Below are positions 5,368 through 7,400 of a stretch of 38,272 nucleotides of DNA, piece after piece (positions within the stretch are counted from its first letter, which is position 1; every line of letters begins with the position of its first letter). The position numbers and the translations under genes were made by a program. Source of the DNA: an uncultured Rubrobacteraceae bacterium. Its GTDB lineage: Bacteria > Actinomycetota > Rubrobacteria > Rubrobacterales > Rubrobacteraceae. Under the pieces are notes generated by a model. The model was not told the DNA's origin. It made no database searches and saw only the letters and a list, made by a program, of their open reading frames with translations. The DNA is taken from NCBI GenBank assembly GCA_902806085.1, contig CADCVH010000044.1:1-38272 (forward strand), read 5' to 3'.

Positions 5368-6234
5368 CTACAACCCCAGCGCTACGCGTCCGCCGGGGGC
5401 CACGCGGGCGTTCGGCGGTTCTCTGTCCACGCCGGAGAGGTCTTCGCCCGAGCTTTCGAGGTAGACGCGGGGTTCTCTTACGGCGGGGTTTGGGTCGGCG
5501 GCGTAGGTCTGCCAGGTGACGCCCTGCCAGGTGAAGTGGATCAGGGCCGCCGGCTCCTCCGTGTCCTGGAGGCCGACGTGGACCTCGGGGCGGCCCAGGG
5601 ACCGGGAGAGGGCGTTCATGGCGTCGCGCTCCCCGGAGTCGTTGAAGAGCTCGATGCCAGCCCGGAGGCGGTTCTCAGAGTCGGCGAGGCTCTCCCGCAG
5701 CTCGCGTTCGGCGTCTAGCTCGGCTCTCAGCGCCTCTACCTGGTCCTGGAGGTCGGAGATAACGGCCTCCCTGCCCTCGAGGTGCCGCTCCAACCCCTCT
5801 ACCCTGCCGAGCGCCCGCCGCAAGGCTTCGTCTTTGCGGGCGGATTCTTCCCGGGCGGACCTGTTCGCCTCCTCCAGCTCTTCTGAGCGGCGCTTCAGGA
5901 GGTGGTCGCGGCGGGCCATCTCGCCGTCTTTGCGCTCCACCTCGCGCTCCAGGCGCGAGATGCGGCGCTCCGAGCCCTCCCGCCGGCGCCGGCGCCCGCG
6001 GGACTCCTCTTCCAGCCCGCGGACCCGCTCCCGGAGCCTGGCGCGATCCCGGTCCAGGGCCTCGATGTGCCCCTCCCCCGCCTCCCTGGCCGCCCGGGCC
6101 TCGTCGGCCGCGAGGCGGGAGGCCGTTATCTCCTCCAGAAGCTCCCGGATGCGGTCGTCTTTTGTCCCGGTCCTGGCCTCGAGCTCCCCCGCGGGAGGCC
6201 CGCCGTTGCCCTCGCGCCCGTCCCCCTCTTGCAC
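5368..6234 (-). CDS. Long coiled-coil protein with C-terminal globular domain, unknown function
   Basis: 288 residues. Residues about 25-200 are almost continuous heptad-like Glu/Arg/Leu sequence (for example RISRLEREVERKDGEM), predicting a long coiled coil. The last 90 residues differ: LFNDSGERDAMNALSRSLG, then FTWQGVTWQTY, resembling a small beta-rich globular domain I cannot name. No signal peptide. It starts 14 bases below the stop of the peroxiredoxin-repeat gene on the same strand, so the pair is probably an operon. Both proteins are rich in charged helices, which hints at a shared structural or scaffolding role (inference only). Confidence 0.7.
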   Translation of the reverse strand: MQEGDGREGNGGPPAGELEARTGTKDDRIRELLEEITASRLAADEARAAREAGEGHIEALDRDRARLRERVRGLEEESRGRRRRREGSERRISRLEREVERKDGEMARRDHLLKRRSEELEEANRSAREESARKDEALRRALGRVEGLERHLEGREAVISDLQDQVEALRAELDAERELRESLADSENRLRAGIELFNDSGERDAMNALSRSLGRPEVHVGLQDTEEPAALIHFTWQGVTWQTYAADPNPAVREPRVYLESSGEDLSGVDREPPNARVAPGGRVALGL

Positions 6235-6248
6235 GATCCCCCCCGGCC

Positions 6249-7400
6249 CTAAGGCTTCTCTTCCGTCACCCCCGGCGGCGCGTCCCCGCTGCCCGCATCG
6301 GAAGGCCCCTCTCCCGCGGGCTTTTTGAGGGACTGGCCCGCCTCCCGCGCCGCCCGGCGCTCGGCCTTGATCCTCTCCCGCTCCTCCTTGGACATCTTCG
6401 CCGGGGCCGGTGCGGCACCGTCCGATGCTTCTCCCCCCTCGCCCGCCCCGGCGGGCGCGGTCGTCTCCGGGGCGCCGGTCTTCAACGATTTCCCGGCCTC
6501 CCGCGCGGCCCGGCGCTCGGCCTTTATGCGCTCCCGCTCCTCGGCGCTCATCTTCTTCGGCGCCCCGGCCGGCGCGTCCCCCGGTGCCGCCGCTGGAGCG
6601 TCCGCCGTCCCCGCGGGCGTAGCGGGTGTTCCAGCAGCATCGGACTTCAGGGACTTGCCCGACTCCCTGGCCGCGCGGCGTTCGGCCTTTATGCGGTCGC
6701 GCTCCTCCTTGGACATCTTCTTGGGCTGTTCCCCGCCGGCCGCGGTGCCGGGCGCCGCCGGGGACGTCTCGGCGGTCTTCACGGTCTTTCCGGCCTCGCG
6801 GGCAGCGCGGCGTTCGGCTTTGATCCTCTCCCGCTCTTCGGCGCTCATCTTCTTGGGCTTCTCGCCGTCGGATTCCTCGGGCTCCTCGGCCGGTTTCTCC
6901 TCCTCGGGTTTCTTCGGGAGGCCGGTGATGGCGCTGACCTTCTCCAGCAGATCTTCGACCGCGGGCCTCTCGCCCGTCCAGGCGTGGGCTACGTTCCCGT
7001 CCGGTCCGACGATAAAGACGGCCGGGCGCGAGGAGTCCCCGCGACGCCGGTCCCTCTCAAGGAGCCCCCAATCGGCGCTCGCCGCCCGGGCGTAGTCGTA
7101 GAGAAGGTAGGACTTCAGGCCGGAGTGCCGGGCGAACTCGCGGGCCGCGGAGGGCTCGGCCACGCCTATGCCCACGACCGATCCGGAGGCCATGTTGATC
7201 TCCTGCTCTTTGGCCGCGAGAGCTTTGAAGTATTCGACATCGTCCTCGTTGCCTGGCCGGTAGAAGGCCACCACGACGGGCCCCCTTACGGTCCTCATGC
7301 TCAACCTGAGCTGCCCCCCCTGGGCGCTCGGCAGGTTGAACTCGGGGGCCTTCGCCCCCACCTCCGGCACGGCGACCTCCCGCTTGCGTCTCGTAAACAC
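6249..7400 (-). CDS. Cysteine-free peroxiredoxin/thioredoxin-fold protein with four charged repeats
   Basis: 383 residues from GTG 7400, preceded by AGGAGG. Residues 10-160 are an AhpC/TSA-like fold: VGAKAPEFNLPSAQGG, PVVVAFYRPG, WGLLERDR, PAVFIVGPDGNVAHAW. The peroxidatic cysteine expected after FYRPG is missing, and the whole protein contains no cysteine, so it cannot be a normal peroxidase. After an acidic Pro/Glu linker come four near-identical 27-residue repeats (183-209, 227-253, 282-308, 334-360) with the core KMS-EER-RIKAERRAARE, separated by Ala/Pro/Gly linkers. The repeats should be short basic-acidic helices. It probably forms an operon with the coiled-coil gene downstream. Role unknown; a binding or scaffold function fits better than catalysis. 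Confidence 0.8.
   Translation of the reverse strand: MFTRRKREVAVPEVGAKAPEFNLPSAQGGQLRLSMRTVRGPVVVAFYRPGNEDDVEYFKALAAKEQEINMASGSVVGIGVAEPSAAREFARHSGLKSYLLYDYARAASADWGLLERDRRRGDSSRPAVFIVGPDGNVAHAWTGERPAVEDLLEKVSAITGLPKKPEEEKPAEEPEESDGEKPKKMSAEERERIKAERRAAREAGKTVKTAETSPAAPGTAAGGEQPKKMSKEERDRIKAERRAARESGKSLKSDAAGTPATPAGTADAPAAAPGDAPAGAPKKMSAEERERIKAERRAAREAGKSLKTGAPETTAPAGAGEGGEASDGAAPAPAKMSKEERERIKAERRAAREAGQSLKKPAGEGPSDAGSGDAPPGVTEEKP
6321..6854 (-). repeat. Four in-frame repeats of a charged helical segment
   Basis: Copies lie at 6774-6854, 6642-6722, 6477-6557 and 6321-6401 (81 bases each, spaced 44-55 codons). Their protein sequences differ at only a few positions (Ala/Lys after KMS, Glu/Asp, Ala/Ser, the last three residues), while the linkers share only Ala/Pro/Gly composition. 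The conservation of the repeats against free linkers suggests selection on the repeat protein sequence. Confidence 0.85.

Follow-up and report, generated by a model that had tools for sequence, protein, structure and literature searches.

The PrxQ/BCP peroxiredoxins (2cx3, 2ywn, and 3hjp; PF00578) shared the fold, the length of the domain and the position of the active-site arginine with PrxL, the protein described here. The nearest solved structures by sequence were the archaeal PrxQ/BCP proteins 2cx3 (E 3e-9) and 2ywn (E 3e-8). PrxL differed from this group in three respects: the peroxidatic cysteine was replaced by aspartate, the PxxxT(S)xxC motif had lost its Pro and Thr, and the domain was followed by a long tail of helical repeats. 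Hyperoxidised peroxiredoxins act as chaperones (reviews PMC6316004, PMC12937771). In these forms the peroxidatic residue bears an acidic group and peroxidase activity is lost, a state similar to that of PrxL, which is probably inactive too; however, they are oxidised forms of typical 2-Cys enzymes. PrxL was absent from the titles and abstracts of the open-access papers searched on Rubrobacter peroxiredoxins or Cys-less peroxiredoxins.

Two further groups were related to PrxL. The AhpC/TSA proteins with the motif FYRGxW[C/U]PYC (L127, L132, and L074), a group that includes candidate selenoproteins, had the FYRGxW stretch in common with the PrxL orthologues L035 and L065. These proteins keep Cys or Sec where the residues of PrxL are Ser/Asn and Asp. 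The other group, named PrxL2, is a Cys-less paralogue family in Rubrobacter genomes (L128, L129, L145, and L040), which was sister to PrxL in the tree with a support of about 0.97. PrxL2 had the S[AV]QGG..RL.MR...GPV stretch and no Cys at the site, like PrxL, but contained an insertion in the domain and no repeats.

The PrxL family provides a natural test of the peroxiredoxin fold without its cysteine. The same locus carried Asp (most genera) or Cys (one genus) at the reaction center and from zero to four helices in the tail. Since the natural orthologues varied in both features, the two changes can be separated by comparing them.

Peroxiredoxin domain and active site

PrxL was encoded in a window of 38,272 nucleotides, which is the whole stretch of DNA analysed. 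The gene, its domain and the two active-site codons were located as follows.

6249..7400, minus strand: PrxL gene, 383 aa, GTG start at 7400, no cysteine
6912..7367, minus strand: peroxiredoxin (PrxQ/BCP-type) domain, residues 12-163, predicted pLDDT about 87-96
7239..7241, minus strand: codon of Asp54 at the peroxidatic-cysteine position, from the orthologue alignment
7026..7028, minus strand: codon of Arg125 at the conserved peroxiredoxin active-site Arg position

The open reading frame reported at 6249-7400 in the first-pass annotation was real and ran on the minus strand from 7400 to 6249. The same annotation had described a cysteine-free protein composed of a peroxiredoxin domain and a four-repeat tail; there were 0 Cys in the 383 aa, and the Pfam match and the comparison of the repeats recovered this layout. 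PrxL is probably expressed as a protein, judging from the reading frame kept by the orthologues and the low dN/dS. The AhpC-TSA profile (PF00578) matched residues 14-139 with an E value of 1.3e-12 and a score of 48.1 bits (cut-off 26), and the Redoxin profile was barely above its cut-off (27.1 bits vs 26.6). The structure of PrxL was predicted with AlphaFold2 on 21 orthologues. The predicted domain of PrxL matched Bcp4, PrxQ, and AhpE with TM scores of 0.74-0.86 normalised by target, and the Foldseek E values against the PrxQ structures in the PDB were about 1e-12 to 3e-13. PrxL thus belonged to the peroxiredoxin (AhpC/TSA) fold family by both the family profile and the fold match. Compared with five relatives, the domain showed a dN/dS of 0.14-0.31 and hardly any indels, and by this measure it is under purifying selection. 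Eight other AhpC/TSA matches were found elsewhere in the genome, most of which carry Cys at the site or have an in-frame TGA there; therefore, the PrxL copy was free to diverge and peroxide defence was not dependent on it.

The family was compared using 27 orthologous sequences. The peroxidatic column contained Asp in 25/27 and Cys in 2/27, and no other residue was found. The Cys of PxxxT(S)xxC and the conserved arginine mark an active peroxiredoxin. PrxL had Asp54 in place of the former, with the Pro and Thr replaced, and retained the latter as Arg125. Across the family the Pro was lost, the Thr position was occupied by Ser, Asn, Asp, or Ala, and the arginine was kept in 26/27 orthologues. 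The loss of the cysteine claimed in the first-pass annotation was thus family-wide, although homologues with the cysteine in place, which the annotation itself had named as contrary evidence, were found in L065 and L035, both from one genus. Some members are possibly redox-active because these two orthologues carry Cys at the site. Since the Asp was replaced by nothing but Cys and the Arg was conserved, the pair suggests that the residue is a charged mimic of a thiolate or sulfinate and did not arise by drift. More simply, the Asp could be invariant just because it caps well the helix that starts at this position.

Selenocysteine encoded by TGA, as in other AhpC/TSA relatives, was rejected for PrxL, whose frame reads Asp at this site with no stop. 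An in-frame TGA at the nucleophile was found in the AhpC/TSA proteins L134 (from the same genome as PrxL), L127, L070, L071, L072, L074, L076, L077, and L079, which are candidate selenoprotein peroxiredoxins by their sequences. The genome of PrxL contained a tRNA-Sec above the cut-off. It also encoded the AhpC/TSA protein L136 with FCPRD where its relatives have WCPYC, that is, with Asp at the second cysteine position.

Tail repeats and their distribution

The tail of PrxL began with an acidic linker and contained four repeats of about 27 aa, starting at residues 182, 226, 281, and 333.

6858..6911, minus strand: Glu-rich disordered linker from the domain to the first repeat (sequence and predicted structure)
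6771..6857, minus strand: repeat 1, PKKMSAEERERIKAERRAAREAGKTVKTA, predicted helix 187-202
6639..6725, minus strand: repeat 2, PKKMSKEERDRIKAERRAARESGKSLKSD, predicted helix 231-246
6474..6560, minus strand: repeat 3, PKKMSAEERERIKAERRAAREAGKSLKTG, predicted helix 286-302
6318..6404, minus strand: repeat 4, PAKMSKEERERIKAERRAAREAGQSLKKP, predicted helix 338-353

The pairwise identity among the repeats was 76-90% in protein and 71-80% in DNA, in agreement with the four near-identical copies noted at first pass. Chance repetition was ruled out by shuffling, since the best 27-aa self-match of the tail was 25/27, whereas 500 shuffled tails gave at most 14/27. Recent duplication of the DNA was ruled out by the synonymous divergence: each pair of repeats showed 9-12 synonymous codon differences (dS about 0.76-1.6, dN 0.06-0.23), so the repeats were not a recent copying artefact and were conserved at the protein level. 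Compared with the two nearest orthologues, 108/116 residues (93%) were identical in the repeats against 39/65 and 49/74 (60-66%), plus gaps, in the linkers, which upheld the earlier view that the repeats were conserved and the linkers were not. Each repeat was predicted by AlphaFold2 as a helix of 16-17 residues with a helix-capping motif, and pLDDT reached up to 91 in the helix blocks and was <50 in the intervening linkers. In the sequence, Ser-x-Glu-Glu formed a helix N-capping box, Ala-Gly-Lys was a plausible C-cap, and Glu and Arg alternated along the helix. The linkers between the repeats were disordered and rich in Ala, Pro, Gly, and Thr, resembling flexible interdomain linkers. The repeat was not found in other proteins of the same genome, and in 198 sampled genomes of the phylum it was confined to the PrxL locus in Rubrobacteraceae. 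A sequence search of the PDB gave no match to the repeat better than E 0.4.

Orthologues were sought in one genome per species of 84,980 species and in additional whole-genome searches. True orthologues were found in Rubrobacteraceae only; the matches that came next scored far lower and were peroxiredoxin-type proteins of other kinds, whose site held either Cys or an in-frame TGA. The number of repeats varied within the family. Four were present in PrxL itself, L047, L022, and L054, three in L048 and L049, with at least three in the incomplete L039, two in L051, L057, and L061, and one at ten loci. Six of the 25 complete orthologues (L059, L033, L035, L036, L066, and L038) had none. With a repeat number from 0 to 4, the core function of the family cannot lie in the tail, and the array is therefore a lineage-specific elaboration in part of it. 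The orthologue L028 (G017, 122-799) had an in-frame TAG near residue 30 and no adjacent coil gene; it may be a pseudogene or result from an error in the assembly.

Coiled-coil partner and proposed role of PrxL

The gene next to PrxL encoded a long coiled-coil protein, referred to as the coil protein.

5368..6234, minus strand: gene of the coiled-coil partner (288 aa), 14 bp downstream of PrxL
5371..5682, minus strand: C-terminal helix-helix-beta domain of the coil protein, no Pfam family

The coil protein was predicted to form a single helix of 168 residues (17-184) and a small C-terminal domain. The order RarA - Zincin - SRPBCC - coil - PrxL / GT4 (divergent) was conserved in most loci, and the coil gene was directly downstream of PrxL in most orthologous loci. 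The adjacency pointed out in the first-pass annotation was therefore not peculiar to the window, and its conservation supported the link between the two genes. The partnership was not obligatory because either gene occurred without the other at some loci. The coil gene was truncated in L035 and did not adjoin PrxL in L034, L056, and L058, and it was present without PrxL at the locus in G016 and G063, both of one genus. The coil gene was truncated or missing at the loci of both Cys-bearing orthologues, and this co-occurrence, seen in a single genus, is suggestive. An anti-phage system was also considered and rejected: PADLOC gave no match for PrxL, and the matches of the coil gene were weak coiled-coil similarity.

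We give an even chance to the reading that PrxL is a Rubrobacteraceae-specific, catalytically dead pseudo-peroxiredoxin and serves as a scaffold or adaptor. The reading starts from the fold match, the residue loss, the selection, the repeat anatomy, and the gene neighbourhood, which were observed; its further steps, namely the loss of activity, the Asp-Arg bridge, the binding of the coil protein, and multivalent docking, are inferred. The PrxQ-type domain would be kept under selection and yet be unable to reduce peroxide, since Asp stands in for the reactive Cys and the motif has lost its Pro and Thr as well. Arg125, which was kept, probably forms a salt bridge with Asp54, and the bridge would freeze the site in a thiolate-like or sulfinate-like state. 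PrxL and the coil protein would be made from the same operon, and PrxL probably binds the coil protein, which is suggested as the partner by the conserved gene pair. In several lineages, the flexible tail would have gained one to four capped, charged helices of 16-17 residues on Ala/Pro linkers, and this array, like “beads on a string”, probably gives a protein partner additional places to dock. A binding module multiplied for avidity is a plausible description of the repeat. It is doubtful that PrxL, with Asp54 and Arg125 bridged, imitates the oxidised (sulfinate) form of a peroxiredoxin by a natural, genetically fixed change, acts as a constitutive scaffold or chaperone, has its docking tuned between species by the number of tail helices, and is organised on the coil partner.

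Other explanations were weighed against the scaffold or adaptor role. The tail could be an array that binds nucleic acid or polyanions, in which the domain is no more than an anchor for basic helices that hold DNA, RNA, or polyphosphate. The 29-aa repeat unit has a net charge of +5, with KK and K..LK at its ends, as such an array would need; however, the helix core with its alternating Glu and Arg is almost neutral (+1 or +2), the whole tail carries only +2, and the linker that precedes the first repeat is acidic. No named Pfam family covered the repeat above the cut-off, and the best match, to the helix-turn-helix family HTH_38, scored 14.7-15.1 bits where 27 would be required. The nucleic-acid role raised in the first-pass annotation thus found no specific support, and we regard it as improbable. 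It is similarly unlikely that the repeats arose by expansion of low-complexity sequence under weak or no selection and that the domain alone matters. Such an expansion would fit the copy number, which ranges from 0 to 4 in this single family of bacteria, and the low complexity of the remainder of the tail, but the copies kept a protein identity of 76-90% despite high synonymous divergence, and the repeats were 93% identical to those of the nearest orthologues with the helix capping retained.

The domain might still be linked to redox chemistry, either as a non-catalytic sensor or as an enzyme that relies on a different residue; the Cys-bearing genus would then show the ancestral activity. In L065 and L035, the peroxidatic residue is Cys, a Ser precedes it by three positions, and the Arg is conserved, as would be expected for such an activity. 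The PrxL protein of the window, however, is without any Cys, and PrxL2 (L128, L129, L145, and L040) also lacks it at the site, so that the loss of Cys may predate the split of PrxL and PrxL2; the support of the tree is too weak to tell retention of the Cys from its regain. We judge a redox role to be quite unlikely for PrxL.

The conserved C-terminal domain of the coil protein is of interest in itself, as it belongs to no named family and recurs in other Actinobacteria. A search for its fold by Foldseek gave nothing below E 0.5, and the best VIA-align match (Z 6.5) was to unrelated helices. The domain was found again in a coiled-coil protein of about 600 aa in nearly every genome of the family, including that of PrxL (G000:C10:44728-45138). 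In other Actinobacteria, it was located behind a CxxC zinc-ribbon-like region (L123 and L124).
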